Source: a virus
Direction: 5' to 3' (one strand)
DNA: 22,749 bases
IMG/VR virus record: IMGVR_UViG_3300042691_007354
Span: 1-22,749 of that record
Made by a program: the position numbers and the translations under genes. Below, piece by piece: positions 2,721 to 21,234 of the stretch. A model generated the notes under the pieces. It saw only the letters and a program-made list of their open reading frames with translations. It was not told where the DNA came from and did no database searches. How positions within the stretch are numbered: position 1 is the first letter of the stretch; each line of letters begins with the position of its first letter.

Positions 2721-2738
2721 GATATTTTTAATTTAACC

Positions 2739-2762
2739 AAAGGGCACAGTATTGTGCCCTTT
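2739..2762 (+). terminator. Rho-independent terminator after cobS
   Basis: A 9-bp stem, AAAGGGCAC (2739-2747) pairing with GTGCCCTTT (2754-2762), closes a 6-base loop. The 3' arm ends in a short T run. It lies 18 bases after the cobS stop and before the late promoter of the glycan cluster, so it separates the two transcription units. Confidence 0.8.
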
Positions 2763-2776
2763 TACCTTTCTCAGCA

Positions 2777-2784
2777 TATAAATA
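2777..2784 (+). promoter_or_regulatory. T4-type late promoter driving the glycan cluster
   Basis: An exact TATAAATA box, the T4 late promoter element recognised by gp55-programmed polymerase and activated by the gp45 clamp. It lies in the short gap between the cobS terminator and gmd, 33 bases before the gmd start. No sigma70 -35/-10 pair is visible in this gap. It is the only promoter I see before about 14.6 kb of tightly overlapping genes, so expression of the cluster late in infection is the simplest reading. Confidence 0.75.
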
Positions 2785-2817
2785 TAATTATATTATTAAT
2801 TCATTATAGGGATTGAA

Positions 2818-3825: not shown

Positions 3826-3830
3826 ATAAA

Positions 3831-7209: not shown

Positions 7210-8084
7210 AAAAGCTGGCTATTGGGTTTACTGATACACACGAGCATCTCGCTGCGTTTTTTATATTCTTATTAAGTACTCGATATGATTTAGAAGTTAT
7301 CGACACCAGAAAAGAAACTCCCGATATTCTTTTATTTGGTGACGATAATTTTGGTAAACGCAATTTAGATTTCTCCAGGAAAGATTGTACTAAGTTATTT
7401 TATACTGGAGAAAATCGTAGACCGGAAAACTTTGATTGTGACTATGCTATTAGCTTCGATCATAATTTTGAACCATGGCATTACAGATTACCATTATATG
7501 TAATTTATATGTGGGCGTTGGAAAATATCCATAACACAAAATATGATTTTAACTATATCTTTAATCCTAAGATTGAAGAAAAAACAGACTTTTGTTCTTT
7601 CGTAGTATCAAACCCTAACTGCACTGAACGTAATGAATTCTTTAAAGAGTTACACGCAGAAAAACATGTCGATAGTGCAGGTAAATTGTTTAATAATACA
7701 TCTGCAAATTTAGTTGGCGAAGCTGCTAAGATTGAATTTCTATCTAAACGAAAATTTAATATTTGTTTTGAACCATACTCACACCCGGGGTATGTAACAG
7801 AGAAAATTCTACATGCATTTTATGCAGGCACTGTTCCTATTTACTGGGGAAGCGAAACAATAAGTTCTGATTTTAATCCCGACGCATTCGTTAATGTGCA
7901 TGACTTTGATAGCTATTATGATGTAATTAAACATCTTGCATATTTGGATAGCAATAAACAAGCATATGATGCAATGGTAAATGCTCCTAAGTTTAGAAAC
8001 GGAATTCCCCCTTCATACATAATGCTCGACAATTTTCTAAATTGGTTTGATGCTGTTGTTTACAATAAAATTCTTAAACGATGA
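7206..8084 (+). CDS. GT10 alpha-1,3-fucosyltransferase
   Basis: A 292-residue member of glycosyltransferase family 10, which transfers L-fucose from GDP-fucose, usually in alpha-1,3 or alpha-1,4 linkage. Diagnostic stretches in order are GENRRPENFDCDYAISFD (68-85), FCSFVVSN (129-136), VDSAGKLFNN (155-164) and the signature block FNICFEPYSHPGYVTEK (184-200), followed by AGTVPIYWGS. The E/YVTEK residues bind GDP-fucose in characterised bacterial family members. No membrane anchor is visible, and C-terminal repeats like those of the H. pylori enzymes are absent. Together with gmd and fcl it makes a self-contained make-and-transfer fucose route. ATG overlaps the upstream stop (ATGA). The acceptor is unknown. 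Confidence 0.9.
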   Translation: MKKLAIGFTDTHEHLAAFFIFLLSTRYDLEVIDTRKETPDILLFGDDNFGKRNLDFSRKDCTKLFYTGENRRPENFDCDYAISFDHNFEPWHYRLPLYVIYMWALENIHNTKYDFNYIFNPKIEEKTDFCSFVVSNPNCTERNEFFKELHAEKHVDSAGKLFNNTSANLVGEAAKIEFLSKRKFNICFEPYSHPGYVTEKILHAFYAGTVPIYWGSETISSDFNPDAFVNVHDFDSYYDVIKHLAYLDSNKQAYDAMVNAPKFRNGIPPSYIMLDNFLNWFDAVVYNKILKR

Positions 8085-8791
8085 AAATACAAACATTTAT
8101 TTTCAACTGGCGCGGACAGTATGAAAAAACAAAAGAAAAACAAAAACAACTGAGTGCCATTGGGGTCGTGCCTGTCGTTATTAATAGTGACGACAATCAC
8201 CGTGAGGACGATCCTAATTGGCACAATATTGGCGAGGAAAGTTATTTTACTGCACAATTTTTGAAAGCGCTTGAATTGTTTGACGGCGACGCAATGTTCC
8301 ATATTCAAGCAGATGCTTCATATAGTAATTGGGCTGAAATTTATGCTGGCGCTGAAGAATGTTTTGATACTTATAATTGGGGTATCTATGCTCCTAATGT
8401 AGATTATACCTGGTATAGTTCTGACAGAACTGATCTTACATCTTTTGATTTAGATGAACCCCATTATAAAATGGTTGCTAATCCAGACTGTACTTGCTGG
8501 TTTATTCATAAAGACATAATCAATGAAGCTAATAACAGAGGTGTGGATTTTGCACCATATAAGATGGGTTGGAGTTTTGACATTGTTTATACTGCTTTAG
8601 GCTATCTTAATAAAAGACCAGTTATCCGAGATTACCGATATACTATTGACCATCCGCCCGGAACCAATTATAATAAAGATCAAGCTGAAATTGAGATGTA
8701 TTCCTTATACGCAGCTTTGCCTACTGATATTCAGCAAGCATTTAGAAGCATAAAACAAGATAAAGAACAATTGGCAAAATATTACGCATGA
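8081..8791 (+). CDS. Putative GT-A-type glycosyltransferase
   Basis: A 236-residue soluble protein beginning MKIQTFIFNWRGQYEKT, with FHIQADASY (near 70) where a GT-A enzyme would carry the metal-binding acidic motif. WFIHKDI and GWSFDIVY follow in the region usually near the acceptor site. This is a resemblance, not a named family match. Gene order supports the call: it lies between the fucosyltransferase and another transferase-like gene, with 4-base overlaps at both ends. The acidic motif is unusual (QADA instead of DxD). Moderate confidence as a transferase; the sugar cannot be assigned. Confidence 0.5.
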   Translation: MKIQTFIFNWRGQYEKTKEKQKQLSAIGVVPVVINSDDNHREDDPNWHNIGEESYFTAQFLKALELFDGDAMFHIQADASYSNWAEIYAGAEECFDTYNWGIYAPNVDYTWYSSDRTDLTSFDLDEPHYKMVANPDCTCWFIHKDIINEANNRGVDFAPYKMGWSFDIVYTALGYLNKRPVIRDYRYTIDHPPGTNYNKDQAEIEMYSLYAALPTDIQQAFRSIKQDKEQLAKYYA

Positions 8792-9711
8792 CACATAACT
8801 TCTCTCAATTAAATGAACTAATCGGTGATTTGCTTAAAGCAAATGAACCGTTTTCGTTATTGCGTATTGACAATACAATGGGATACGTATTAGATTCTTT
8901 GCAGAAAAATACTACTCCTGTTAGAGAATTTTATAATGAAAATACTTTAGTTGAAGGTGGTGTGTATCCCAATGTGATGGATTATGCATATGATGTTGTT
9001 ATACCTAAGACATTAGAATCAATGACACATTGTGATATTCTTGGGTTTGTTGACCTATCAGGTGAAATAGAACGTAATACAGAATTTACTAATTTATTTG
9101 GTAAGAAGCCTAAGTTCTATGGGCATGATAGTATATTAGTTCTTGATCCATGTGCATTGTTAAATGTGGATGGAGCGCATCAATTAGATACACCTTGGCC
9201 CACATATTTAAAAGATAAAAAGGTATTAGTTGTTTCTACCCATGCAGAAACAATTAAACATCAATGGAAAAATATAGACAATATTTGGGGTTGGAATAAG
9301 CACCGAATCGCACCATTTGAATTAGTAGATGTTATTAAATCCCCGTATCACCCTGTTATGGATCCTAATCAATATCCTGGATGCAATACTTGGGAAGATA
9401 CTGTTGAATATATAAAAGCAAAGATTGATACATATGACTACGATGTATTAATTGCAGGATCAACAACTTCTTCTCCTATGTATGCAGAACATGCTAAACA
9501 ACAAGGCAAAGTAGGAATACAAACTGGGGGCGTTCATCAGTTGTTCTTTGGTATATTGGGATATCGTTGGTCGCCTGAAGCACAGAATGGTTACAGATCA
9601 TGGGCAAAATTATACAATCAACATTGGAGATATCCATTGGAAGTAGATGAACCCGTAAACAGAAACAAATATAAATTTTTAGAAACTAACTACGCATACT
9701 GGAAAAAATGA
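8788..9711 (+). CDS. Putative GT-D-fold glycosyltransferase
   Basis: A 307-residue protein. The N-terminal FSLLRIDNTMGYVL resembles the fSLLRxGDGE start of the GT-D (DUF1792-type) glycosyltransferases first described in streptococcal serine-rich-repeat glycoprotein loci. The C-terminal YDVLIAGSTTSSPMYAEHAKQQGKVGIQTGG followed by an FG segment matches the family's usual ending (written here in pieces of one continuous region near 215-250). The acidic DxE is not cleanly preserved, since IDNT stands where GDGE is expected, so activity may be altered. No membrane segment. It overlaps both neighbours by 4 bases. Confidence 0.5.
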   Translation: MTHNFSQLNELIGDLLKANEPFSLLRIDNTMGYVLDSLQKNTTPVREFYNENTLVEGGVYPNVMDYAYDVVIPKTLESMTHCDILGFVDLSGEIERNTEFTNLFGKKPKFYGHDSILVLDPCALLNVDGAHQLDTPWPTYLKDKKVLVVSTHAETIKHQWKNIDNIWGWNKHRIAPFELVDVIKSPYHPVMDPNQYPGCNTWEDTVEYIKAKIDTYDYDVLIAGSTTSSPMYAEHAKQQGKVGIQTGGVHQLFFGILGYRWSPEAQNGYRSWAKLYNQHWRYPLEVDEPVNRNKYKFLETNYAYWKK

Positions 9712-11030
9712 ATAAACAAGATATTATTAAAAGTGTTGCTGAATTTATTCAAGAGAAAAACAGCAAAAAGACTTGGGTGGCAGGAAAAGACTTTGTTAAT
9801 TATGCTGGCCCTTATTTTGACGAACACGAAATTATGGCTTCGGTATCTACATTATTAGATGGCTGGCTTGTAATGGGAGATCAATCATTAAAGTTTGAGA
9901 AACAATTCCCTAAGCAATTCCAAAAGAACTATGGTATACTTACTAATTCAGGATCAAGTTCTAATCTATTAATGATGTCTACGCTTACATCTAAGCGTGG
10001 TCGTAACTTGCCTAAAGGTACAAAGGTATTGATGCCTATTGCAGGCTTTCCCACAACATTAAATCCTACATTGCAAGTAGGGTTTGAGCCTGTATTTTTA
10101 GATATCGAATTAGACACACTTAATTTAGATTTAACTAGAGCAGAAGAATTAATTAAGAAACATGATATTAAAGTTATTACATTTGCTCACGTGTTAGGCA
10201 ATCCCCCTAATATGCGTTGGGTAATGGAATTAGTTAATCGGTATGATTTGATTTTATTAGAAGATTGTTGCGATGCGTTAGGTTCCACATATGGTGGTCA
10301 ACCACTAGGATCATTTGGTGAAATGGCATCTTGCTCATTCTATCCTGCGCATCATATGACAATGGGTGAAGGCGGGTTTGTAGCATGTAAGTCATATGAG
10401 ACAGAAGTTATCCTTCGTTCATTTAGAGAATGGGGACGCGGTTGTTATTGCGTAGGACCCGAAGCTAATAAATTAAAATGTGGTTCCTGCGGCAAGAGAT
10501 TTCAAGAATGGATTCCGGAAATGCCAGGTGAAATATTTGACCACAAATATGTGTATGATGAGATTGGATATAACCTTAAGCCTATTGAATTGCAAGGTGC
10601 AATGGGGTTGGTTCAACTAGAAAAATTGGAGACTATTCATGCACTACGTCGTCGCAATTATGGTTTGTTGTTTGATATCTACAGCAAATACGAGGAGTAT
10701 TTTCATCTACCAAGAGCACAAGAATACTCAGACCCAAGTTGGTTCGCATTTCCACTAACAATTCGTGCAGGATCTCCTTTCAAGCGTAGCGACATTGTAG
10801 ACTATTTAGAAGAAAAATTAATTCAGACGAGACCTTATTTTGCTGGGAATATTATGCTACAGCCTGCATATTCTCATTTAATGAATCCTGCGGATGCAAG
10901 AGATAATTTTCCTGTTGCTACAATGACAATGACTAATACTTATTTCCACGGTACAAGTCCTGTTATTACCCCTGAGCAAATTGCCTACATCGGAGAAACT
11001 GTAGACAGTTTTATGAGTTTATTTACCTAG
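9708..11030 (+). CDS. RfbH/E1-like Fe-S sugar 3-dehydratase
   Basis: A 440-residue DegT-fold protein that follows RfbH/AscC (E1, CDP-4-keto-6-deoxyglucose 3-dehydratase) along its length: SLDGW-like LLDGW, TNSGSSSNLL, IAGFPTTLNP, EDCCDALGS (185-193), SFYPAHHMTMGEGG, WGRGCYC and a DPSWFAFPLT segment. The PLP lysine is replaced by His215, so the enzyme should use PMP and dehydrate instead of transaminate. The [2Fe-2S] cysteines of E1 are present as Cys188-X57-Cys246-X-Cys248, but the last one is shifted: Cys258 and Cys261 give X9 or X12 instead of X7. E1 normally needs a ferredoxin-type reductase (E3) that I do not see here. Substrate could be a CDP-, dTDP- or GDP-linked 4-keto-6-deoxy sugar. 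Confidence 0.85.
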   Translation: MNKQDIIKSVAEFIQEKNSKKTWVAGKDFVNYAGPYFDEHEIMASVSTLLDGWLVMGDQSLKFEKQFPKQFQKNYGILTNSGSSSNLLMMSTLTSKRGRNLPKGTKVLMPIAGFPTTLNPTLQVGFEPVFLDIELDTLNLDLTRAEELIKKHDIKVITFAHVLGNPPNMRWVMELVNRYDLILLEDCCDALGSTYGGQPLGSFGEMASCSFYPAHHMTMGEGGFVACKSYETEVILRSFREWGRGCYCVGPEANKLKCGSCGKRFQEWIPEMPGEIFDHKYVYDEIGYNLKPIELQGAMGLVQLEKLETIHALRRRNYGLLFDIYSKYEEYFHLPRAQEYSDPSWFAFPLTIRAGSPFKRSDIVDYLEEKLIQTRPYFAGNIMLQPAYSHLMNPADARDNFPVATMTMTNTYFHGTSPVITPEQIAYIGETVDSFMSLFT

Positions 11031-11037
11031 GAAAAAT

Positions 11038-12048
11038 ATGAGAGTATGCGATTGGATAGCCGAATACCTGTGGAACTATGGCGTCAAGAATGTTTATGGC
11101 ATCATGGGTGGAGGGGCTTCGGGGCTTAATGATGGGTTTATTAAACAAGGTAAAATTAATTACCGTTGTTTCCATCATGAACAAGGTGCAGCTCACGCTG
11201 CAATAGGCGAAGCAAAATTAACTAGAGAAGTTGCTGTGGTTAATCCCACCACGGGGTGTGCAGGAACAAACTGTGCTACTAGTGTATTGAATGCTTGGCA
11301 CGATGGTATTCCTTTAGTGTTTATTAGTGGTAATGTTAGAATTGATACTTGCTCTGGACATATTAATCGTACCAAAGGTATTAATATTCGCAAATACGGA
11401 ATACAAGAACATCACATAGTTGACATATACAAATCAATAACTAAGTATGCAGAGTTTGTTACTAAAGTTGAGGATATTCCTAAGATTTTACAACAGGCAT
11501 TATATATTGCACAAGACGGTCGTCCTGGCCCTGTGTGGATAGATATACCCGGAAATATACAAACAGCACAAATGCCTACTGAATATGAGGAGTTTATTCC
11601 TCCTTCTAAATCTAATATGTCTTTTGATTATGCTGATATACAAGTAAAACTTAATGAAGCAAAAAGACCAATAGTCCTTGCAGGATATGGTATTCGCCAG
11701 GCAAAATGCGTAGATGAGTTTGTGCAGTTTGTTGAGAAATATCAGATTCCGTTTGTCAGTACATTCGGCGGCGTGGATTATACTATTACAGATCATCCTT
11801 TAAGTATTGGCGCTATAGGAATTAAAGGTTCTCGTTCTGGTAATTTTGCAATAACCAACGCAGATTTATTATTAGTTTTAGGTAGTAGTTTGCCCGGAAG
11901 CGCAATTGGTTATGATCCAAAGCAGTTTAGCCCTGGGAGTTATAAAATTGTTGTTGACATTGACTCAGATGAACTTAAAAAAGATATTGTAAAAATTGAT
12001 AAACCTATTAATGTAGATCTTAAAGAATTTTTTGGAGCCATGCTATGA
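11038..12048 (+). CDS. ThDP enzyme, N-terminal half (PYR and central domains)
   Basis: A 336-residue protein equal to the first two domains of an acetolactate-synthase-type thiamine-diphosphate enzyme. The PYR domain runs to about residue 165 with the catalytic glutamate Glu48 in HHEQGAAHAA and the PTTGCAGTN segment. The central Rossmann-like domain follows from about 190 and ends in VDIDSDELKKDI. It stops before the cofactor-binding PP domain, which is encoded by the next gene. Full-length relatives are about 560-580 residues. In deoxysugar clusters such enzymes (YerE is the studied case) add a two-carbon acetyl unit from pyruvate to a 4-keto-3,6-dideoxy sugar, which fits its position after an RfbH-like dehydratase. 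The start has AGGAAAA just upstream. Confidence 0.85.
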   Translation: MRVCDWIAEYLWNYGVKNVYGIMGGGASGLNDGFIKQGKINYRCFHHEQGAAHAAIGEAKLTREVAVVNPTTGCAGTNCATSVLNAWHDGIPLVFISGNVRIDTCSGHINRTKGINIRKYGIQEHHIVDIYKSITKYAEFVTKVEDIPKILQQALYIAQDGRPGPVWIDIPGNIQTAQMPTEYEEFIPPSKSNMSFDYADIQVKLNEAKRPIVLAGYGIRQAKCVDEFVQFVEKYQIPFVSTFGGVDYTITDHPLSIGAIGIKGSRSGNFAITNADLLLVLGSSLPGSAIGYDPKQFSPGSYKIVVDIDSDELKKDIVKIDKPINVDLKEFFGAML

Positions 12049-12779
12049 ATAGACAAGAATGGATAGCTAAATGTCAGTCTTGGAAAAACAAGTGGCCTAC
12101 TATGCAACAAGAATATCTCGATGATAGTAAAGGTCTAACCATTTATGCAGTAATAGATGCGTTAAACGCTCATAGCAGACCTGGTGATATTTTTGTAGGC
12201 GATGCTGGTCAAATTTATTATGCAGGTCCCGTGGCATATAAATTAAAAGAAAATCAAAAATTAATTTGGAGTCACGCCCAGGCGGATATGGGATGGAGTT
12301 TACCTGGGGCAATAGGCGTATCATACAATACAGACAGTACGGTTATTGCTGTTATAGGCGATGGTAGTTTTATGAGTAATATACAGGAACTAGCTACAGT
12401 TAAACAAAATAAAACTAATACTAAGTTTATAGTATTAAATAATGGCGGATATGTTAGTATTAAAAATACTCAAACTAAATACTATGAGGGTAGAGTATAT
12501 GGTACAAGCGATGAATCGGGGTTGTGGTTTCCTAAATTTAAAGATGTTGCTGATGCATTTGGTTTAGATTATATTTGTTTAGAAACGTTTGAAGATTTAT
12601 CTAAACTATCTGATTTATTAGCGATCGACGGTCCAATAATAATTGAATGTATTAGCGTAAAGGAACAGGATATACTTCCAGCACAAGCATTAAAAGATGG
12701 CAAACAATGTGGTCTACATGATATGGCTCCTTTTTTAAGTGACGAAGAACTGAATACAGAAATGGTTATTAATTTATGA
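12045..12779 (+). CDS. ThDP enzyme, C-terminal half (PP domain)
   Basis: A 244-residue protein carrying only the diphosphate-binding PP domain: GDAGQ (52-56), MGWSLPGAIGVSY, and the ThDP/Mg motif from GDGSFMSNIQE (105-115) to the NN at 132-133. With the preceding gene it makes one complete enzyme. The halves meet at a natural domain border with an ATGA overlap, and this gene has its own GGAG at 12034-12037, 7 bases before the ATG, so two separate subunits look intended. A T6 run (12028-12033) lies just upstream, and one extra T there would fuse the frames, so a recent deletion or read error cannot be excluded. Confidence 0.83.
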   Translation: MNRQEWIAKCQSWKNKWPTMQQEYLDDSKGLTIYAVIDALNAHSRPGDIFVGDAGQIYYAGPVAYKLKENQKLIWSHAQADMGWSLPGAIGVSYNTDSTVIAVIGDGSFMSNIQELATVKQNKTNTKFIVLNNGGYVSIKNTQTKYYEGRVYGTSDESGLWFPKFKDVADAFGLDYICLETFEDLSKLSDLLAIDGPIIIECISVKEQDILPAQALKDGKQCGLHDMAPFLSDEELNTEMVINL

Positions 12780-13564
12780 ATAAAGTAATGATTATTGGTG
12801 CAAGCGGATTCATTGGATCATATATAGCACCTCTTTTAAACAGAACACATGAAGTAATACCTATCCATAAGAATGAAATAGACATTTTAGATAACGACAC
12901 GGTTACAAAAATGTTAGACATTATTAGACCAGATGTTATTATAAATTGTTTAACATTTGGTGGCAAGACAGAACTGCATGAAAACAATGCTCAAAATGTC
13001 GGCAAAAATATGGCATTCTTCTATAATTTTTACACAAATCAAGACAAGTTTAATTTTTTTATAAATTTGGGATCGGGTATTGAATTGCAGGGTGACGAAA
13101 ATAATGCGTATGCTTTTTCTAAAAGACTAATTAATAGTTTATGTTTTGGCCCTAAATTTTTAACATTAAGACTGTTTGGATGTTTTGGCAAAGGCGAACC
13201 GAGCCACAGATTGTTAAAACAATATAATGCGTCTGAAGGTGAATTTAAAATAAAGAATGATAGACTATTCGATTATTTTTCAGTTCAAGATTTATATAAT
13301 GTCATAGAATATTCTATTGATAAATTTGGTACTAAAGATTGGCTGGTAGGTGATATAGTTGATTGTGTTTACCACAATAAAATTACCCTAAGTGATTTTC
13401 TAGGCATGTACTGTGATATAAATAATATAGAGAAAAGATTTGTAGTAGAGTCTACAAGTGACGAAAAATATACAGGCCATTCAACTGATCTTTATACATT
13501 GCAAGAGCATGGAGGATTAAAGTTGTATGGCATTGGACATGGGTTGAAAGTTTATAATGACTAA
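12776..13564 (+). CDS. NAD(P)-dependent sugar reductase/epimerase
   Basis: A 262-residue extended SDR protein with nucleotide-binding GASGFIGS (8-15), a DVIINCLTFGG segment, Ser100 in NLGSG, and the catalytic Tyr112/Lys116 in AYAFSK. It is shorter than the 4,6-dehydratases and resembles RmlD-type 4-keto reductases. In yersiniose synthesis the product of the ThDP enzyme is reduced by an SDR enzyme (YerF), and this gene sits exactly after the ThDP gene, so reduction of the new acetyl or keto group is the natural guess. A general 4-keto reductase or epimerase is the alternative. It overlaps both neighbours and lacks a clear ribosome binding site, so coupling is likely. Confidence 0.72.
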   Translation: MNKVMIIGASGFIGSYIAPLLNRTHEVIPIHKNEIDILDNDTVTKMLDIIRPDVIINCLTFGGKTELHENNAQNVGKNMAFFYNFYTNQDKFNFFINLGSGIELQGDENNAYAFSKRLINSLCFGPKFLTLRLFGCFGKGEPSHRLLKQYNASEGEFKIKNDRLFDYFSVQDLYNVIEYSIDKFGTKDWLVGDIVDCVYHNKITLSDFLGMYCDINNIEKRFVVESTSDEKYTGHSTDLYTLQEHGGLKLYGIGHGLKVYND

Positions 13565-14507
13565 AGTTGTTTATGTTACAGGATGTATTGGATTTATAGG
13601 TTATCATGTAACCAAAAAATGTTTAGATGCGGGTTATCATGTTTTGGGAATAGATAGTAAAACATATGCAAGCAATTTAAATCTCTTACCTGAATTATTA
13701 AAATATCCCAGATTCAAATTTTTAGAATTGGATATTAATGATCTAGACCGTCTTCACGACTGCGATTATTTTATTAATACCGCAGCTGAAACACACGTCG
13801 ATAACAGCATTGTTAGTTCGGATGTATTTTTAAGAAGTAACATCAACGGTGTTCATAAAATACTAGAACTAATTAAAGCTATACCAAAAGCTCGTAGACC
13901 AATATTATTACACTTCAGTACAGATGAAGTATATGGCGATATTGTAGATGGATTTCATTCTGAAACAGATTTACTAAAACCAAGCAATCCTTATTCAGCA
14001 ACAAAAGCAGCAGCTGATATGTTGGTGACTGCCTGGGCAAGAACATATGACGTTCCCTATGTAATTATTAGACCAACTAATAATTATGGAATTGGTCAAT
14101 ATGTTGAGAAGTTTATTCCCAAAGCAATTAAAAATTTATCGCTAGGTAGACCTATTATCATGCATGACAACGGATCTCCTAGAAGAACTTGGTTGCATGT
14201 ATCTGACACAGCAAATGCAGTATTAAAAATTATTGAATCTGGAACAGTTAACGAAACCTACAATATTTCAGGTAATTATGAGGAACAAAATATTATTGTT
14301 GCTAAACATTTAGTTGATTTATTCTTTAATTGGAATGTTATCCACTATACAGAATTTATGGATTTTTCTGAAAAGCGTGCGGGGCAGGATGTTAGATATG
14401 CTATAGATGATTCTAAATTAAAAGCATTGGGTTGGAACCCTGAAGCAAATTTTAATGAAGCTTTAGTAGATATTGTAAAATACTATAAAGAAAATTTTAT
14501 ATGGTAA
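13557..14507 (+). CDS. RmlB-like NDP-glucose 4,6-dehydratase
   Basis: A 316-residue extended SDR enzyme closely resembling dTDP-glucose 4,6-dehydratase (RmlB): NAD-binding TGCIGFIG (8-15), AAETHVDNSI (76-85), the catalytic STDEVYG (121-127; Thr122, Asp123, Glu124), Tyr146/Lys150 in YSATK, RPTNNYGIGQ, RRTWLHVSD, and a final RYAIDDSKLKALGW. All catalytic residues are present, although it is about 40 residues shorter than E. coli RmlB. It would give an NDP-4-keto-6-deoxyglucose, the type of substrate the E1-like enzyme at 9708 dehydrates. No nucleotidyltransferase (RmlA or RfbF) is seen in the window, so NDP-glucose must come from the host. The nucleotide (dTDP, CDP or UDP) is not decided by sequence. 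Confidence 0.85.
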   Translation: MTKVVYVTGCIGFIGYHVTKKCLDAGYHVLGIDSKTYASNLNLLPELLKYPRFKFLELDINDLDRLHDCDYFINTAAETHVDNSIVSSDVFLRSNINGVHKILELIKAIPKARRPILLHFSTDEVYGDIVDGFHSETDLLKPSNPYSATKAAADMLVTAWARTYDVPYVIIRPTNNYGIGQYVEKFIPKAIKNLSLGRPIIMHDNGSPRRTWLHVSDTANAVLKIIESGTVNETYNISGNYEEQNIIVAKHLVDLFFNWNVIHYTEFMDFSEKRAGQDVRYAIDDSKLKALGWNPEANFNEALVDIVKYYKENFIW

Positions 14508-15199
14508 ACAAAATTATATCATTAAGTGTCTGGGGCAATGATCCTAGATATATTGTTGGCGCAAATCGTCAATATGAATTGGCAAAACAATATTATCCTG
14601 GATGGGAATTTAGAATTTATACAGATGACAAAACTAAATTCGCAAATTTAACTGATGCTAACATTGTAGAAGTGACCGATGGTTCATATGGAATGTATTG
14701 GCGATTCCGTGCAATGTTTGAAGATGAAAACAATATAGTAATTGTTCGTGATTCAGATAGCAGAATTACTGTCAGAGAACAAAGAGCAGTTAATGAATGG
14801 ATGGAATCCGACAAAAAGTTTCACACATTTAAAGACCATCAAGCACATTTTGAATTCCCTATTATAGGTTGTGCATTTGGATATAAGGGTAAATTTAATG
14901 AGCAAACACAAACTCAATTAAATTCCTACACAAAAGAACTTAACTATTATGTGGGTGATCAAATATTCTTAAGGGATGTTATTTGGCCATTGGTTAAAGG
15001 TGATGCTATAGTTCATTGTATGAACGATGGATGGTTTAAAGAAACAAGACAACAATTAGTTAATCCATATGATTTCTGTGGCAACGGGTATGACGAAAAC
15101 GACATGCCGCTATATCCACCAACACTAGCAGAATGCGCGGGGTTTAATCCTGGCAATACATCTAAAGTATTTAAATTTAATAAAGGTCTTTTAAAATGA
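14501..15199 (+). CDS. Putative GT-A glycosyltransferase with DSDSR motif
   Basis: A 232-residue soluble protein. It begins NKIISLSVWGNDPRY, followed by a region with YGMYWRFRAMFED and then VIVRDSDSRIT, where DSD is a plausible metal-binding DxD of a GT-A enzyme. The remaining GCAFGYKG and GDQIFLRD pieces fit a small nucleotide-sugar transferase. I do not recognise a named family. It overlaps the dehydratase stop by a few bases with no evident ribosome binding site, and ends in an ATGA overlap with the next transferase. Substrate unknown. Confidence 0.55.
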   Translation: MVNKIISLSVWGNDPRYIVGANRQYELAKQYYPGWEFRIYTDDKTKFANLTDANIVEVTDGSYGMYWRFRAMFEDENNIVIVRDSDSRITVREQRAVNEWMESDKKFHTFKDHQAHFEFPIIGCAFGYKGKFNEQTQTQLNSYTKELNYYVGDQIFLRDVIWPLVKGDAIVHCMNDGWFKETRQQLVNPYDFCGNGYDENDMPLYPPTLAECAGFNPGNTSKVFKFNKGLLK

Positions 15200-15999
15200 A
15201 AAGCTTTTTTATTGTACCTGTTTTTAACAAAGAACATTTAATTGCTGAAGTATACAAAGGTATAGAGTTATCTGTAAGTGAGGAATATCCTCACACAAAA
15301 ATATTCATTATTGATGGGTGTACTGATAAAAGCGAAAAGATACTTAAAGAATTTAAGGATCCTAATAGTATATTTTTGTTTGCTGATAACGTACACGAAA
15401 TTCGATCATTAAATATTGGTCTTGATTATATTAAAGATAATTGCAATCCTTCTCCTGAAGATTTAATTTTTACAGTACAAGATGATGTTATCTTACAGGA
15501 AAACGATATTGATATAAGATTCAAAGAATTATTTGAAGAATATACTGATCTCGGATATGTTAGTATGAGATTAGGTAGTAAGTTATCTAAAGCAGGCAAT
15601 ACATTAAATGAATCTTCATTAATAGAATCTGAATTTGGACATTGGGCACACCTGGGATTGAATCATTTTACAAAGGTTGGTCACACGGAGATAATGGAAA
15701 CAGAGATTGCAGTAAGAAGCCCAACCTGTATGGAATGGAAACGATATGTTGAAGCTGGATTCTATGATGATAATTTAGCCCCATGTGGTTACGATTGTCA
15801 TGATATGTCTATTAGATTAAACAAATTAGGTTATAGAAATTGCGTGTATGCGTTAAAGTATCAAAGTGATCCTAATTGGGGAACAATGCGAGAAAAACCT
15901 GATACTGATTACAATATAAAAACAGGTGATAACTATGAACGCAACAGACAATACTTAGTTAAAAAACATAATGATTATTTTGGGAGAACAAATGAGTAA
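15196..15999 (+). CDS. Family 2-like glycosyltransferase
   Basis: A 267-residue GT-A protein of GT2 type. The N-terminal FFIVPVFNKEHLIAEVYKGI and IFIIDGCTDKSEKIL are the standard GT2 opening with the nucleotide-binding Asp. FTVQDDVIL (near 95) supplies the metal-binding acidic motif in QDD form, and CGYDCHDMSIRLNKLGYR resembles the acceptor-side ED region. No membrane segment is present, so it would act in the cytoplasm or at the inner face of the membrane. ATGA overlap upstream and overlap with the methyltransferase downstream. Sugar and acceptor not assignable. Confidence 0.8.
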   Translation: MKSFFIVPVFNKEHLIAEVYKGIELSVSEEYPHTKIFIIDGCTDKSEKILKEFKDPNSIFLFADNVHEIRSLNIGLDYIKDNCNPSPEDLIFTVQDDVILQENDIDIRFKELFEEYTDLGYVSMRLGSKLSKAGNTLNESSLIESEFGHWAHLGLNHFTKVGHTEIMETEIAVRSPTCMEWKRYVEAGFYDDNLAPCGYDCHDMSIRLNKLGYRNCVYALKYQSDPNWGTMREKPDTDYNIKTGDNYERNRQYLVKKHNDYFGRTNE

Positions 16000-16717
16000 A
16001 ACCTTTAATGATTATACGGTCAAAGAAATTGAAAGTATAAAAGATCGCAATCAATTATATGATATATTTAAAAATTCATATAATATATTACCAGATGTAA
16101 TTAAAAAACATCGCAAGTATTTTGTAGAAGACAATAGAGGATTTGGTGAAGACGCATTTCACGCAATGTGGTATTATATCTTTAAAAATTATAGACCACA
16201 AAATGTTTTAGAAATTGGAATTTATAGAGGACAGACACTTTCTTTATTTCAGCTTTTAAGCGATCATTTTAATATCGGTAGTAATGTTGTAGGTATTTCA
16301 CCTTTGACGGCAGCAGGCGATTCTAAATCTAATTACATTGAGCTTGATTATGAAAAAGATATTTTAGAAAACTTTGATAGGTTTAATCTAAAACATCCTA
16401 AATTAGTTAGATCATTTTCAAACCACGGGCCTGCGAGATACGAAATTAAATCTTCAACATGGGATTTAATCTATATTGATGGTTGTCATGATTATGATAT
16501 TGTATTAATTGATTATTATAATTGTGTTGATGCATTGAATCAACAAGGCATTCTTGTTTTAGATGATTCTAGTTTATATGAAGATTTTAATTACCCCAAC
16601 ACATTTAAGGGACACGAAGGCCCTTCAAAAGTCGTTCAAAATTTTATTAAACCCGAGCTTGATAATTTCTTAGCTGTCGGACATAACAATTGTTTTAGGA
16701 TTCCTAATTATGAGTAA
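15992..16717 (+). CDS. Class I SAM-dependent methyltransferase
   Basis: A 241-residue methyltransferase. Motif I is VLEIGIYRGQT (72-82), and the post-core DLIYIDGCHDYD, followed by an acidic/hydrophobic ILVLDDSS, is typical of the Methyltransf_24/cephalosporin-hydroxylase-like group found in glycan clusters. Its likely target is a sugar hydroxyl, either on a nucleotide sugar or on the finished glycan. The start is ATG 15992 with GGGAGA at 15982-15987; an in-frame ATG at 15971 lies deep in the previous gene and is less likely. It sits between two GT2-type genes. Confidence 0.75.
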   Translation: MSKTFNDYTVKEIESIKDRNQLYDIFKNSYNILPDVIKKHRKYFVEDNRGFGEDAFHAMWYYIFKNYRPQNVLEIGIYRGQTLSLFQLLSDHFNIGSNVVGISPLTAAGDSKSNYIELDYEKDILENFDRFNLKHPKLVRSFSNHGPARYEIKSSTWDLIYIDGCHDYDIVLIDYYNCVDALNQQGILVLDDSSLYEDFNYPNTFKGHEGPSKVVQNFIKPELDNFLAVGHNNCFRIPNYE

Positions 16718-17435
16718 AGTAACTATTATTACAGCAACAACTGGATCTGCATATTTAACAAAAAATATACTATCCGTTCAATCACAAACATATAAAGATG
16801 TGCAACATTTAGTTGTTGTAGATGGCGAAGAACATGTCATGAAAGTCGCAGAACAACTGGACATGCTTAATCAACCTAATATTGATTTACTAATTCTTCC
16901 ATATCCAACAGGCACAGAACAATATAATGGTCATAGAATTTATGGCGCAGCTACTTATTTGGCTAAGGGAGATTATATTTGTTTCTTAGATGAAGACAAT
17001 TGGGTTGATCCTGACCATGTTAAAAGCTTAATGTACACTATTAAAGATGGCGGATTTGCGTGTGCTCTTAGAAAGATTGTTGATTCAAACGGTAAGTTTA
17101 TTTGCAACGATGATTGCGAATCTCTTGGTAATTGGAAATCTGTTATTAATGATTACTTTGTAGATGTAAATTGTTTCTTTTTGCCAAAGCCGTTAGCATT
17201 AGAACTATCACCTATTTGGTATAGACGTGCAAGACATCCAGACGATCAACCTGAAGTCGATCGAGCATTGACAAACGCACTAAAAGATAATAAAATAGAG
17301 TGTAATGTAACTGGAATGTATTCTGTTAATTACAGAGCAGGCAATAGAGCAGATTCGGTTCAAGCCCAGTTTTTTAAACAGGGCAATGAAATAATGAAAC
17401 AACGATATAATGGAGATTATCCGTGGCGGAAATAG
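16710..17435 (+). CDS. Family 2 glycosyltransferase
   Basis: A 241-residue GT2 enzyme. It starts VTIITATTGSAYLTKNILSV, continues with VQHLVVVDGEE, and has the metal-binding DEDNW (in ICFLDEDNWVDPDH, near 95). The last visible region includes a DDQPEVDRAL segment that may hold the catalytic acidic residue. It is soluble, with no transmembrane helix. It is the last gene of the glycan cluster; its end overlaps the DUF3310 gene that leads into the replication block, so the glycan and replication genes could share a transcript. Confidence 0.85.
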   Translation: MSKVTIITATTGSAYLTKNILSVQSQTYKDVQHLVVVDGEEHVMKVAEQLDMLNQPNIDLLILPYPTGTEQYNGHRIYGAATYLAKGDYICFLDEDNWVDPDHVKSLMYTIKDGGFACALRKIVDSNGKFICNDDCESLGNWKSVINDYFVDVNCFFLPKPLALELSPIWYRRARHPDDQPEVDRALTNALKDNKIECNVTGMYSVNYRAGNRADSVQAQFFKQGNEIMKQRYNGDYPWRK

Positions 17436-17764: not shown

Positions 17765-18421
17765 ATGCAAATTAGTAATGAAACAATCCAAATTTTGAAG
17801 AACTTTGCTGCGGTAAACAGCAATATTCTCATTCGTAAAGGCAAGACTTTGTCTACAATCAGCACAGCAAAGAACATCTTTGCTAAAGCAACAGTAGCAG
17901 AAGACTTTCCCGTTGAGGTTGCGGTGTATGATTTAAATTCATTGTTAGCATTGTTGACATTGATGGAGAATCAAGATGTTGAGTTTGGCGAGAAGTCATT
18001 GACTATCTCTAAAAACAATGGTAAGTTTGAGTACTTCTATTCTAACGCAAACGTAATTGTTGCGGCTCCTGATAAGTCTATTGAGATTGATAATCACTTT
18101 CAATTCCAATTGTCAGCAGAAGATGTTAACATGATTATGAAGGCAGCTAATATTACAGCAGCCCCTACAATTTCAGTAACAGCAAAAGACGGTACAGTTG
18201 TATTGACTATCGGTGATAAGAAAAACGATACAGCAAATACTTATAAGAAAACAATTGGTGCAAGTGACGAGTCATTTGAATGCCATATGTCTGTAGACAA
18301 TTTTAAAATTGTCCCTGACGCCTACACAGTAACAGTATCTAAAAAGAAATTGTTCCACTTCCAGCATGCTACAAAGGCATTGGAATATTTTATCGCAATG
18401 GAACCCGATTCGGTAGTTTAA
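17765..18421 (+). CDS. 45: Sliding clamp (T4 gp45)
   Basis: A 218-residue homologue of T4 gp45 (228 residues), the trimeric DNA polymerase processivity clamp, which is also the mobile activator of late transcription. The opening ETIQILKNFAAVNSNILIRKG aligns with the T4 start (TTALLKNFATINSGIMLKSG in spirit and spacing), VAVYDLNSLLALL matches the T4 VAIYDLNGFLGIL, and the C-terminus YFIAMEPDSVV matches YVVALEADST. The ribosome binding site is AAAGGA (17751-17756), and the start region resembles a RegA target (see findings). Its presence supports the late-promoter calls, since gp45 is required for T4 late transcription. Confidence 0.95.
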   Translation: MQISNETIQILKNFAAVNSNILIRKGKTLSTISTAKNIFAKATVAEDFPVEVAVYDLNSLLALLTLMENQDVEFGEKSLTISKNNGKFEYFYSNANVIVAAPDKSIEIDNHFQFQLSAEDVNMIMKAANITAAPTISVTAKDGTVVLTIGDKKNDTANTYKKTIGASDESFECHMSVDNFKIVPDAYTVTVSKKKLFHFQHATKALEYFIAMEPDSVV

Positions 18422-18422
18422 T

Positions 18423-19067
18423 ATGTTTAAACAATTCATACACGATGTCCATTCTCAAAATGGTGAGGATGGTATTATAGCTAATATTCTGACTCGATTG
18501 CCAACTTCTACATTAACTAAATGGGCGGTAGAATTTGGAACATTGGATGGCAAGATATATAGCAATACTCTTAATCTAGTAAAACAGGGCTGGCATTCTG
18601 TTATGATTGAGGGCGATCCTGCGCAGACTGAAGCATTGCACAACACTGCTAAAGAATTTCCTACTATCATTCCAATTATTGCATTTGTTGCAAGAACTGC
18701 TGAAGAAGAAAATTCTTTATTTAATTTACTTAAAACTACAGATGTCCCAGAAGATTTTGATGTGCTTTCTATAGATATAGACACATATGATTCTGATGTA
18801 TGGGAATCTTTTGTGGGGTATAATCCTAAGATTGTAGTTATTGAAATTAATAGCGATACCCCAGTAGGGGTACATCATCGACACGTTGAAGGTGCTATCT
18901 CTGGAGGAACATCATTTAGCGAAATGTTAAATGTTGGAACTAATAAGGGATATACTTTAGTATGTCACACTGGCAATTGTATCTTTGTTAGAAATGATCT
19001 TATTAGTCATTTAGGAATGCCTCAAAATTTATTGGATAATCCCAATTCATTATTTAAGGGACCGTGA
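18423..19067 (+). CDS. FkbM-family methyltransferase
   Basis: A 214-residue SAM-dependent methyltransferase of FkbM type: SQNGEDGIIANIL near the N-terminus, the motif I region AVEFGTLDGKIYSNTLNL, WHSVMIEGD, and the later LSIDIDTYDSDVW followed by VVIEINSD. These enzymes generally O-methylate sugars or secondary metabolites. It is placed between the clamp and clamp-loader genes, which are neighbours in T4, with only one base separating it from the gene 45 stop and no clear ribosome binding site. It most likely serves the glycan cluster upstream, despite its location in the replication block. Confidence 0.8.
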   Translation: MFKQFIHDVHSQNGEDGIIANILTRLPTSTLTKWAVEFGTLDGKIYSNTLNLVKQGWHSVMIEGDPAQTEALHNTAKEFPTIIPIIAFVARTAEEENSLFNLLKTTDVPEDFDVLSIDIDTYDSDVWESFVGYNPKIVVIEINSDTPVGVHHRHVEGAISGGTSFSEMLNVGTNKGYTLVCHTGNCIFVRNDLISHLGMPQNLLDNPNSLFKGP

Positions 19068-19129
19068 TACTGGTTGGACCTGACGGAAAGCTATACGTCA
19101 AAGAGAATGACATTTGGCGTAAAATTTAA
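19064..19129 (+). CDS. Possible 21-residue peptide
   Basis: A small frame starting at GTG 19064, overlapping the FkbM stop (GTGA), with AAGGG a few bases upstream. It ends at TAA 19127-19129, 18 bases before gene 44. The peptide is polar with a GPDGKLYV turn and an IWRKI end. The overlap style matches the rest of the operon, but the length, GTG start and lack of a known family make this uncertain. It could also be a remnant of a longer FkbM C-terminus. Confidence 0.3.
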   Translation: MILVGPDGKLYVKENDIWRKI

Positions 19130-19147
19130 TATTATGGAGTTATTATT

Positions 19148-20089
19148 ATGGATATTCGTGAACAAGAGTTTTTGTGGGTTGAGAAGTATCGCCCACGCAC
19201 ATTAGCCGATTGTATTCTTCCTGCAGATCAAAAGAAGATCTTTCAGGAAATGCTCTCTAAAGGAGAGATTCAAAATATGCTATTGTGCGGTGGCGCAGGC
19301 ATGGGCAAGACCACAATTGCCCGAGCATTATGTGAAGAATTACAAACAGACTATATCATCATTAACGGCTCAGAAGAATCCGGTATTGATGTTCTTCGTA
19401 CAAAGATTAAACAGTTTGCTTCTACTGTATCATTCAGTGGTAAGCCGAAGGTTGTTATTCTAGACGAAGCTGATTATTTGAATCCCAATTCTACTCAACC
19501 TGCTCTTAGAGCATTTATGGAAGAGTTCTCATCGAATTGTAGATTCATTTTTACTTGTAACTTTAAGAATCGTATTATTCCTCCGCTTCATTCTAGAACT
19601 GCGGTAGTTGAATTTAAGTTGCCAAAGGCCGAGAAGCCAAAGATTGCAGCTGCATTCTTCAAGCGTGTTCTTGAGATTCTCAAGCATGAGTCTGTAGAAG
19701 CAGATGATAAAGTTATTGCTAAAGTAATTGAAAAACACTTCCCCGATTATCGTCGTATTCTAAATGAATTGCAGCGTTATAGTTCTTCGGGCAAAATTGA
19801 TGAGGGCATTCTTGTCAATATGGGTGAGATCAATATGCAAGAACTCACTGCTGCACTTAAAGATAAAGACTGGAAGAAGATGCGTACTTGGGTTGTTAAT
19901 AACATTGACAATGACCCACAGACTTTATTTCGTAAGTTCTATGACACTATGAGTGATAGTGTGGTTCAAGTACCACAGCTTGTTTTGTTACTTGCAGACT
20001 ATCAATATAAATCAGCATTTTGTGCAGACCAAGAAATTAATCTTGTAGCTTGTTTAACAGAGATTATGGCCTCGGTAGAGTTTAAATGA
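19148..20089 (+). CDS. 44: Clamp-loader large subunit (T4 gp44)
   Basis: A 313-residue AAA+ ATPase, close to T4 gp44 (319 residues). Four copies with one gp62 load the gp45 clamp onto primer-template DNA. Motifs: the N-terminal WVEKYRPRTLADCILP typical of clamp loaders, Walker A GGAGMGKTT (48-56), Walker B VVILDEAD (102-109), the NSTQPALRAFMEE segment, sensor 1 in FTCNF, and the arginine finger Arg150 in LHSRT. The start ATG 19148 has GGAG at 19135-19138. The following membrane-protein gene overlaps its stop by 4 bases. Confidence 0.95.
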   Translation: MDIREQEFLWVEKYRPRTLADCILPADQKKIFQEMLSKGEIQNMLLCGGAGMGKTTIARALCEELQTDYIIINGSEESGIDVLRTKIKQFASTVSFSGKPKVVILDEADYLNPNSTQPALRAFMEEFSSNCRFIFTCNFKNRIIPPLHSRTAVVEFKLPKAEKPKIAAAFFKRVLEILKHESVEADDKVIAKVIEKHFPDYRRILNELQRYSSSGKIDEGILVNMGEINMQELTAALKDKDWKKMRTWVVNNIDNDPQTLFRKFYDTMSDSVVQVPQLVLLLADYQYKSAFCADQEINLVACLTEIMASVEFK

Positions 20090-20373
20090 TTGAATTATTA
20101 AAACCTACATTTGATTGGATTAAACATGATTACACTAGTAATAAGTTTCGTTTTTGCGTGGAGTTGTTTGCTTGGGCTATTAGTATTGGGTGTTCAATTA
20201 CCATGGCTCTCACTGTCCCCAATCCGCCCTTACTTTCTCTGTACCCTATATGGATTGTCGGCTGTGGTATGTATGCTTGGGCTGCTTTTACTCGCAAATC
20301 TTTTGGCATGCTGGCTAACTACTTGCTATTGGTAACAATAGATTCAGTCGGATTGATAAGGATGTTAACATGA
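20086..20373 (+). CDS. Small membrane protein between clamp-loader genes
   Basis: A 95-residue protein with three probable transmembrane helices: about 22-44 (VELFAWAISIGCSITMAL region), 52-68 (YPIWIVGCGMYAWAAF) and 75-94 (MLANYLLLVTIDSVGLI). A short polar N-terminus precedes them. It has ATGA overlaps with gene 44 upstream and gene 62 downstream, so it is firmly embedded in the replication operon. I do not recognise a family with confidence; the last two helices loosely recall PnuC-type nicotinamide riboside transporters, but the protein is too short to be one. Confidence 0.7.
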   Translation: MIELLKPTFDWIKHDYTSNKFRFCVELFAWAISIGCSITMALTVPNPPLLSLYPIWIVGCGMYAWAAFTRKSFGMLANYLLLVTIDSVGLIRMLT

Positions 20374-20810
20374 GTTTATTTGGAACCCCTGTTGAAAAAC
20401 CTGCAGAAGTTCCATATAAGGCTCCTGCAATTTCACCCTTTGACTTCATTAATGCTATTCATTACAGTAAAGATAACCTTATTGTAGATGATTGGTCTGA
20501 GAAACAATACAACCCGTTTATTATTAATAAAGGACTATCTTACGGACACGACACAGTAATCCCCGCAAATGAGATGAATTCCCGCCCACATCTTGAGAAA
20601 AAGATGCAGTTTTCGTTTCTTATAAATACTATTAGGCCCCGTAAAAGATTCAACAAATGGATCAAAGCGGACAAACTTGAATCGATCGAAGTAATTAAAG
20701 AATACTATGGATATAGCACAGAGAAAGCCCGCCAAGTACTCCCCCTCTTTGACGACTCAAAATTAGATTATTTAAGAACAAAACTAATAAAAGGTGGTCG
20801 TAATGGCTGA
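20370..20810 (+). CDS. 62: Clamp-loader small subunit (T4 gp62)
   Basis: A 146-residue protein with T4 gp62 character in size class and position (T4 gp62 is 187 residues). Both begin MSLF, and the basic PRKRFNKWIKADKLESIEVIKEYYGYSTEKA region (about 90-118, one continuous stretch) parallels the T4 PRGKRYGKWAKL and following helix. The sequence is otherwise divergent, as is usual for gp62. Its place between gene 44 and regA is the T4 order and is the strongest support. A single gp62 bridges the gp44 tetramer. It is shorter than T4's by about 40 residues, mostly missing from the C-terminal end. Confidence 0.78.
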   Translation: MSLFGTPVEKPAEVPYKAPAISPFDFINAIHYSKDNLIVDDWSEKQYNPFIINKGLSYGHDTVIPANEMNSRPHLEKKMQFSFLINTIRPRKRFNKWIKADKLESIEVIKEYYGYSTEKARQVLPLFDDSKLDYLRTKLIKGGRNG

Positions 20811-21234
20811 AGATATTTTTCACATTGATTATCCGGGATATACTCCGTTAGAAGTAACCCTTGTACAACCTGACGATTTTTTGAAGGTCAGGGAAACACT
20901 TACACGTATAGGTGTAGCTTCTAGAAAAGATAAAGTATTATATCAATCTTGTCATATCCTACATAAACAAGGTAGATATTTTATTGTACACTTTAAAGAA
21001 CTATTTGCGTTAGATGGCAAGTCTGCAGATCTAACTGAAAACGATTTACAAAGACGTAATACAATTGCTAAATTGTTAATAGATTGGGGTTTAGTGCAGG
21101 TCATTAATCAAGATAAGTTTACAGATTTGGCGCCATTATCGCAGATCAAAGTAATTGCTTTTAAAGATAAAAATGAATGGTCTCTCCAAACAAAATATAA
21201 TATTGGTAAGAAAAAACAAACTACAGAGCAGTAA
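20803..21234 (+). CDS. regA: RegA translational repressor
   Basis: A 143-residue homologue of T4 RegA (122 residues), an RNA-binding protein that blocks translation of early phage mRNAs by covering their start regions. The match is strong: LEVTLVQPDDFLKVRETLTR and KDKVLYQSCHILHKQGRYFIVHFKEL correspond nearly residue for residue to the T4 protein, as does the C-terminal DKNEWSLQTKYNIGK. There is an extra N-terminal segment of about 17 residues. ATG 20803 with AAAGG (20789-20793) is preferred over GTG 20794. It is followed directly by a late promoter and a structured RNA instead of gene 43, which follows regA in T4. Confidence 0.95.
   Translation: MAEDIFHIDYPGYTPLEVTLVQPDDFLKVRETLTRIGVASRKDKVLYQSCHILHKQGRYFIVHFKELFALDGKSADLTENDLQRRNTIAKLLIDWGLVQVINQDKFTDLAPLSQIKVIAFKDKNEWSLQTKYNIGKKKQTTEQ

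Follow-up and report, generated by a model that had tools for sequence, protein, structure and literature searches.

The window analysed here is the whole stretch of 22,749 nucleotides (nt) of the IMG/VR virus record IMGVR_UViG_3300042691_007354. Five open reading frames (ORFs) on the same strand occupy positions 9708-14507, and neighbouring frames overlap or lie 7 nt apart. They encode an RfbH/E1-type 3-dehydratase, a thiamine diphosphate (ThDP) enzyme divided over two genes, a short-chain dehydrogenase/reductase (SDR) and an RmlB-like 4,6-dehydratase. These classes, assigned earlier in a reading made from the letters alone (the sequence-only reading), are borne out by matches to the RfbH equivalog, to the ThDP domains of Pfam, and to SDR and RmlB-like profiles. 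The best explanation of this cassette seems to be a phage-borne module for a C4-branched 3,6-dideoxyhexose, which we consider fairly probable. The five genes are as follows.

9708..11030, plus strand, 440 amino acids (aa): RfbH/E1-type nucleotide-sugar 3-dehydratase (pyridoxamine phosphate, [2Fe-2S])
11038..12048, plus strand, 336 aa: N-terminal subunit of a split YerE-like ThDP carboligase (pyrimidine-binding and central domains)
12045..12779, plus strand, 244 aa: C-terminal subunit of the split ThDP carboligase (diphosphate-binding domain, GDG motif)
12776..13564, plus strand, 262 aa: extended SDR, proposed branch ketoreductase
13557..14507, plus strand, 316 aa: RmlB-like nucleotide-glucose 4,6-dehydratase, probably for deoxythymidine diphosphate (dTDP) sugars

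Viral relatives were collected by similarity to the window, 37 loci through the N-terminal part (N-part) of the ThDP enzyme and the best 80 of 144 through RfbH. They amount to 114 loci on differently named contigs, 113 of them with rfbH. Many are nearly identical and thus not independent, and all counts below describe loci chosen by that similarity.

The first gene exceeds the cut-off of the curated RfbH equivalog (NCBIfam NF011936; 439.5 bits against 423), and the top match of its product in the PDB is E1 of Yersinia (3bcx; E 1e-96). Cys188, Cys246, Cys248, Cys261 and His215 of the window protein align with Cys193, Cys251, Cys253, Cys261 and His220 of E1; these cysteine numbers are presumably those of the residues ligating the cluster. 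The four Fe-S cysteines are thus present, and together with the histidine that replaces the pyridoxal phosphate (PLP) lysine they are conserved in all 113 rows compared (the window and 112 viral rows of more than 50% identity and 380 aa). Four cysteines and a histidine in place of the lysine are described as hallmarks of E1 and SpnQ (PMC8987622). The gene at 9708..11030 is confirmed as an RfbH/E1-type Fe-S 3-dehydratase, for which deoxygenation at C3 is predicted.

The two-subunit ThDP enzyme

The N-part matches PF02776 (TPP_enzyme_N) and PF00205 (TPP_enzyme_M), and the C-terminal part (C-part), which carries the GDG motif, matches PF02775 (TPP_enzyme_C). JanthE (8rph) is the top PDB match of both parts (E 4e-47 and 1e-28, respectively), and it also ranks first for a fused homologue and for a more distant one from the same gene position. 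The predicted fold of the N-part, with a mean predicted local distance difference test score (pLDDT) of 83.8, covers residues 6-341 of JanthE with a Z value of 27.9. The central domain, looked at in connection with FAD binding, is present in the window enzyme and has a fold like that of JanthE. JanthE is a YerE-like carboligase that forms tertiary alcohols from ketones (PMC12188165, PMC12247030).

In a careful tree of 40 hand-picked rows, a branch with 100/100 support splits the acetohydroxyacid synthases (AHASs) and glyoxylate carboligase (GCL) from all phage enzymes, JanthE and PpYerE. For the last of these we used PDB entry 5ahk, titled acetohydroxy acid synthase from Pseudomonas protegens, which we take to be PpYerE. 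A single group made of the window clade and three AHASs was rejected by the approximately unbiased test (p-AU 0.0088; 39 rows, GCL excluded). The trees thus place the window enzyme with JanthE as a YerE-like enzyme, apart from the acetolactate synthases, and carboligation onto a ketone is predicted for it.

Several observations weigh against this placement. The folds of AHASs tie with that of JanthE in their match to the predicted N-part; in the second fold comparison, and in one of the alignments (A1), the viral rows were N-parts only. The sequence identities of the window enzyme, 30% to JanthE, 31% to AHAS I and 28% to PpYerE, do not separate the classes, and identity or fold alone was rejected as a means of telling YerE-like enzymes from AHASs. 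In the 39-row tree PpYerE branches off between the AHASs and the remaining enzymes (support 92/81 for its grouping with the AHASs), which makes the link of the phage enzymes to JanthE more secure than that to YerE proper. In a larger quick tree of 84 rows, which kept 52 of the 83 viral ThDP rows, the separation from the AHASs reached only 94 by the Shimodaira-Hasegawa-like approximate likelihood ratio test, and one AHAS joined GCL through long branches. The outgroups were few, namely three AHASs and GCL, with PoxB added in one tree.

An ordinary acetolactate synthase serving amino acid synthesis during infection would account for these ties, and also for the fact that the best NCBIfam names are those of such models. 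The scores on these models, however, are far below the cut-offs (e.g., 197 against 970 and 192.5 against 538 bits, for a protein of half length). The tree test rejects the grouping with AHASs, and the enzyme lies within a sugar cassette. On the tree test and the context this candidate was rejected, and we regard it as very improbable. The assignment as a YerE-like carboligase is preferred. The relationship to YerE drawn in the sequence-only reading holds in that the enzyme groups with JanthE and away from the AHASs, but among characterised enzymes JanthE is the closest, with PpYerE placed between it and the AHASs.

The cut between the two subunits lies in a linker, after approximately residue 342 of JanthE. 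The frames of the two parts overlap by 4 nt (ATGA), and GGAG lies upstream of the start of the C-part. The same arrangement is common in the viral relatives: the YerE-like gene is split in 52 of 82 loci and fused in 30. Among 51 split junctions, ATGA with a 4-nt overlap was found in 46, TTGA with a 4-nt overlap in two, and overlaps of 29-50 nt in three. A Shine-Dalgarno-like motif lies within 20 nt upstream of the C-part in 50 of the 51, a number given with no chance control and from loci many of which are kin. The viral N-parts are 326-374 aa long, whereas the bacterial ThDP frames (ten frames in nine loci) are fused and 599-863 aa long.

A decayed or inactive remnant, or a frameshift of the assembly, might also produce two frames. 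Fused homologues do exist (L028 and L030-L033, of which L028 and L033 fall within the split clade), and the cut shifts the frame. Against this stand the number of split loci, the length range of the N-parts, the conserved GDG motif and the recurring junction described above, so that decay or error is hardly credible. The arrangement suggests that two subunits are made by coupled translation, and the gene does not look broken.

PHROG 11199, which has no stated function, matches both halves. When the N-part was compared by tblastn with 50,697 phage records, 39 matched, all at less than 60% identity (35.9% in the best row), and several of them are annotated as acetolactate synthase or are host contigs. 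Some entries of the phage collection, among them AFYI01000003.1, are in fact contigs of bacterial genomes (e.g., from Salmonella, carrying ilvB and ilvN). This means that matches in that collection need checking.

The sugar nucleotide and the steps absent from the record

The SDR matches Epimerase and RmlD_sub_bind of Pfam. Its AlphaFold2 model (pLDDT 92.9) is equally close, at Z values of about 25, to many epimerases and reductases of nucleoside diphosphate (NDP) sugars, including GDP-fucose synthase and RmlD, and the fold search did not single out one reaction. In an alignment of 20 SDRs, Tyr112 is invariant and Lys116 occurs in 90% of the rows or more.

The RmlB-like protein scores best on TIGR01181 among the NCBIfam families yet stays under its cut-off, and the name "RmlB-like" is used for this reason. 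On the model of the dehydratases for cytidine diphosphate (CDP) glucose, TIGR02622, it reaches 67.7 bits against a cut-off of 278.45. Of its 11 PDB matches at E 1e-20, the top ten are dTDP-glucose 4,6-dehydratases and none is a CDP enzyme. The motif STDEVY, with the catalytic Asp-Glu, occurs in 92 of 92 viral homologues and the narrow YxxxK pattern in 87 of 92; both are present in the window protein. The sugar nucleotide is probably dTDP and not CDP, as judged from these sequence features. No homologue of RfbF or RfbG was found among the 1,966 viral ORFs scanned at E 1e-20. By comparison, bacterial relatives use CDP genes: an RfbF homologue is present in 14 of 25 loci, with curated matches in L143 and L129, and an RfbH-like ORF at 35% identity or more in 15 of 25. 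The dTDP-like dehydratase, together with the lack of viral RfbF and RfbG among the ORFs scanned, makes CDP-yersiniose itself unlikely.

Family profile searches gave no match to a nucleotidyltransferase, RmlC or Fer2 in the window. A nucleotidyltransferase was found in one of 23 records of relatives, and neither RmlC nor a Fer2-type E3 in any of 22 viral records; many of these records are fragments, which makes the absences provisional. The host would have to supply what is missing, presumably as dTDP-glucose and a ferredoxin-type reductase. SpnQ, a dTDP-using relative of E1, runs with general ferredoxin or flavodoxin pairs (PMC8987622). Rhamnose synthesis as the role of the RmlB-like gene was considered and rejected, given that RmlC is missing from the window and all 22 viral records, although a host could supply this enzyme.

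The slot downstream of rfbH

The genes between rfbH and the next downstream match to the SDR or the RmlB-like protein are here called the slot. The locus scan left out L001, L002, L062 and L064 (the window itself and repeat contigs), and later counts also L059 (a repeat contig). A whole gene for a YerE-like ThDP enzyme is carried by 82 of the 113 viral rfbH loci; the slot count reaches 84, as it includes gene fragments that L068 and L105 have at their contig ends. The slot holds a YerE-like enzyme in 70 loci, a pair of genes similar to the alpha and beta chains of E1 dehydrogenases in nine, both types in two, and a split transketolase-like pair in three. At the domain level, the pair families score over the Pfam cut-offs (E1_dh, 58 bits; Transketolase_N, 29 bits; Transket_pyr, 66 bits). 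In the loci found by the RfbH scan only, in which the ThDP enzyme played no part in the selection (n = 77), a YerE-like enzyme occurs anywhere in 46, an E1-like pair in nine and a transketolase-like pair in five. No whole carboligase is present in 17, two of which are cut at a contig end. Three of the 46 YerE-like loci also have an E1-like match, one of them outside the slot. The E1-like ORF of L058, a single fused frame of 389 aa at 13153-14321, lies outside the slot and was not counted as a slot pair.

Where the gene directly upstream of rfbH is shared with the window, the slot contains a ThDP carboligase in 32 of 32 loci: YerE-like in 28, both types in two, an E1-like pair in one (L106) and a split transketolase in one (L107). 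The decarboxylase superfamily, which includes the YerE-like enzymes, alpha-ketoacid dehydrogenase 2 (aKADH2) and the split transketolases are the ThDP superfamilies described for sugar branching, the role of the last in branched sugars being given there on gene-cluster grounds only (PMC12247030). The strongest argument that the slot serves to branch the keto-sugar is its occupation by three ThDP families. In L106, an ORF at 9905-10558 that looks by eye like a homing endonuclease lies between the E1-alpha-like and E1-beta-like genes.

These counts bear on the alternative that RfbH, the RmlB-like protein and the SDR, the last acting as a 4-ketoreductase, make a plain 3,6-dideoxyhexose and that the ThDP enzyme has an unrelated role. 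The SDR shows a weak sequence resemblance to 4-ketoreductases and shares their common fold. In addition, RfbH is the sole window protein matched in the stretch of 12 viral loci (L087-L092, L095, L097, L098 and L100-L102), which have no carboligase there; an epimerase-like gene (cluster C22) lies upstream in about ten of these 12. The Synechococcus phage S-H68 has rfbH beside dTDP-sugar and glycosyltransferase genes, as in the window type; unlike the window, the stretches read in S-H68 and AG-345-D19 gave no match to YerE-like, E1-like or transketolase-like probes. The filling of all 32 slots of window synteny by a ThDP carboligase, in some cases from another superfamily, stands against a plain dideoxyhexose, which we consider improbable. 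A branched dideoxyhexose is preferred.

Comparison with close relatives locates the edges of the exchange. L042 is 88.4% identical to the window over 1708-11024 and 85.8% over 12767-15192, and the ThDP genes between them do not align. For L041 the identity is 86.7% over 1682-11043 and, beyond a middle part where four short pieces align more weakly, 80.9% from 13570 onwards. At positions of about 11025-11037, the edge of rfbH, an E1-like pair is inserted in L044 and an aminotransferase in L104. The slot is not always replaced: L040 is collinear through it at 82%, and L048 nearly so. The replaced stretch is bounded by the last bases of rfbH (11030) on one side and the beginning of the SDR or RmlB-like gene on the other, and the slot thus acts like a cassette set between flanks that are conserved.

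Genes that might provide or modify the branch are frequent in the 82 YerE-like loci. A class I aminotransferase is present in 32, an acylating acetaldehyde dehydrogenase with a 4-hydroxy-2-oxovalerate aldolase in five, and an HpcH-like aldolase in ten, eight of which also have an AroB-related cyclase. The dehydrogenase of L079 and the aldolase of L096 are each over the NCBIfam cut-off. L041 (9389-11887) and seven other loci carry an HpcH-like aldolase, a FabG-like SDR, an AroB-related sugar phosphate cyclase and a fused ThDP enzyme.

The ThDP enzymes of L079 and L061 are 70% and 63% identical to JanthE and share its rare CDG motif, and their genes adjoin the dehydrogenase/aldolase pair, which is expected to make 4-hydroxy-2-oxovalerate. 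JanthE accepts this compound in vitro with benzaldehyde as acceptor (PMC12188165), which fits the presence of the pair beside the JanthE homologues. In the trees, the characterised JanthE is nested within the phage diversity (L079 9322-11157, L061 9314-11113) as sister to L079. This suggests that phages and Janthinobacterium-like bacteria have exchanged such genes. A Methylophilaceae contig (L139, 394-6418) contains in a row an acetaldehyde dehydrogenase, a 4-hydroxy-2-oxovalerate aldolase, another aldolase, an SDR and a ThDP enzyme, a cellular parallel of the slot of L061 and L079.

The window itself has no donor gene, and the gap between rfbH and the ThDP gene is 7 nt. Pyruvate of the host would thus be the simplest donor. 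The same chemistry might instead give another branch, if a longer or functionalised 2-oxo acid of the host were the donor or if the branch ketone were aminated. YerE-like enzymes are described as taking donors of various lengths, ErwE as refusing pyruvate, and branch ketones as open to reduction, oxidation or transamination (PMC12247030); the donor-type genes counted above point in the same direction. Against this possibility stand the short gap in the window and 19 split-type loci, including the near-twin L003, that show none of the listed donor genes. Such a different branch is possible, though on the whole doubtful.

Setting, proposed pathway and meaning

The features around the cassette are as follows.

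8788..9711, plus strand: possible glycosyltransferase with a GT-D-like fold, immediately 5' of rfbH (PF22882, 26.7 bits, just under the cut-off of 27)
14501..17435, plus strand: downstream ORFs of the same locus (one uncharacterised, two glycosyltransferase-like, one methyltransferase-like)
17765..21234, plus strand: T4-like replication genes, which mark the record as viral (PHROGs 223, 168, 225 and 242)
17765-18421, plus strand: sliding clamp (PHROGs)
19148-20089, plus strand: clamp loader large subunit (PHROGs)
20370-20810, plus strand: clamp loader small subunit (PHROGs)
20794-21234, plus strand: RegA (PHROGs)

The ORFs of 14501..17435 are retained next to the cassette in close relatives. 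The ORF at 14501-15199 had no match in the Pfam scan, the ORF at 15971-16717 matches a methyltransferase PHROG weakly, and those starting at 15196 and 16710 were judged by eye to be glycosyltransferase-like. Upstream, at 2818-5932, lie gmd (over its cut-off), an fcl-like gene (434 bits, cut-off 500) and a second PLP dehydratase, whose top solved match is ColD and which has HH at the active site and an incomplete set of Fe-S cysteines. This region is likely to be a GDP-colitose-type arm; together with the RfbH arm next to it, one phage would have two different 3-deoxygenation chemistries. A GT10 alpha-1,3-fucosyltransferase, including its N-terminal domain, is encoded at 7206-8084.

The long run of sugar genes separates a left block, with a phrog_459 protein and a phrog_249 "porphyrin biosynthesis" ATPase, from the T4-like replication block on the right, which also contains Hsp20. 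Among named phages, the Methylophilales phages Melnitz have the most similar clamp loader (62% identity). A second contig (L003) carries a stretch 99-100% identical, so that the cassette is not confined to one assembly. The T4-type major capsid protein gp23 was found on nine of 16 records of relatives, eight over the cut-off, and in none of 14 control genomes; the records with gp23 include L079 (327 kb), L061, L052, L054, L067 and L042. Matches to the clamp-loader family, present in 16 of 16 viral records, are non-specific, since all 14 control genomes match too. A genomic island of a host was rejected as the origin because the window has T4-like genes for the clamp, its loader and RegA, and relatives have gp23.

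Computation established what the genes are, which catalytic residues they keep, where the ThDP enzyme falls in the trees, that the slot is replaced and that precursor enzymes are missing. From these results we infer the order of reactions, along with the donor, the nucleotide, the stereochemistry of the product, the acceptor glycan and the purpose. A nucleotide-glucose of the host, most likely dTDP-glucose, would be 4,6-dehydrated by the RmlB-like enzyme, and RfbH, with electrons from a host reductase, would remove O3 to give an NDP-4-keto-3,6-dideoxyglucose. The two-subunit YerE-like enzyme might then decarboxylate a 2-oxo acid, most simply pyruvate, and add the acyl group to the C4 ketone, forming a tertiary alcohol. 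The SDR could reduce the branch ketone to a hydroxyalkyl group, and a glycosyltransferase encoded nearby might transfer the branched sugar to a surface glycan. The slot for the ThDP enzyme and its donor genes would be swapped as a cassette among related phages.

To the counterpoints given above for the ThDP enzyme, others are to be added. The RmlB-like protein is under the cut-off of its own family (297.8 against 365.1 bits on TIGR01181). The slot holds no carboligase in 29 of the 113 rfbH loci, with the enzyme elsewhere in the locus in 14 and none in the stretch in 15. The E1-beta-like gene is under the Pfam cut-off (25.3 against 27), and L043 and L044 hold the YerE-like enzyme and the E1-like pair together.

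The idea of a yersiniose-like pathway put forward in the sequence-only reading is partly supported. Its logic of C3 deoxygenation followed by ThDP-dependent carboligation is upheld by the Fe-S and histidine set of RfbH, the ThDP tree and the 32 filled slots. Neither of the two outcomes that would have spoken against it, a grouping of the ThDP proteins with acetolactate synthases or a dehydratase lacking the Fe-S cysteines, was observed. The nucleotidyltransferase and E3, which it had noted as missing, are indeed not found in the window, nor in 22 of 23 and 22 of 22 records of relatives, respectively. Yersiniose as the product finds no backing in the dTDP-like dehydratase or in the viral ORFs scanned for RfbF and RfbG. 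Of the transfer of acetyl from pyruvate, the carboligation step stands, but a two-carbon donor is unproven, and the loci of relatives contain additional genes of donor or aminotransferase type.

Branched deoxysugars are known from bacterial lipopolysaccharide (LPS) and antibiotics. The pathway of yersiniose A in Yersinia pseudotuberculosis resembles the window in its 4,6-dehydratase, Fe-S 3-dehydratase, ThDP carboligase and reductase; it is CDP-linked and uses a single YerE protein (PMC12247030, PMC4753412). In contrast, the window has a dTDP-like dehydratase and a two-subunit ThDP enzyme with 28% identity to PpYerE, and no nucleotidyltransferase or E3 is found in it. Reduction of the yersiniose branch was described as still uncharacterised by 2016 (PMC4753412). 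JanthE (Janthinobacterium) and ErwE (erwiniose) are YerE-like carboligases accepting ketones, as is proposed for the window enzyme. The latter differs from JanthE in its 30% identity, the usual GDG instead of CDG, the split and the lack of donor genes alongside. The physiological substrate of JanthE is given as unknown (PMC12188165). The E1-like and split transketolase-like pairs in or near the slot of related phages recall the aKADH2 and split-transketolase branching enzymes of antibiotic clusters, but the phage pairs are short (E1-like, 206-221 and 176-209 aa; transketolase-like, 202-219 and 158-159 aa). Among the open-licence papers listed, none on a viral pathway for a branched deoxysugar was found. 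A global-ocean catalogue of viral genes excluded contigs with LPS islands (PMC11360552), which is one reason why such genes can be missed.

On balance, T4-like phages seem to possess a fixed frame of RfbH, the RmlB-like protein and usually the SDR, which would form and complete a dTDP-linked 4-keto-3,6-dideoxyhexose, around an exchangeable slot, filled from three ThDP superfamilies, among them a two-subunit carboligase, and often with donor genes, so as to build different branches at one position; we hold this to be somewhat better supported than not. The larger result, an exchangeable carboligase slot across T4-like phages, suggests a viral means to diversify surface sugars. The branched sugar might alter the host surface against competing phages or decorate the virion. 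If this is true, phages diversify surface sugars by exchanging the C–C bond-forming step itself. The slot would also give a context to JanthE-like enzymes and a supply of candidate ketone-accepting carboligases for synthesis.

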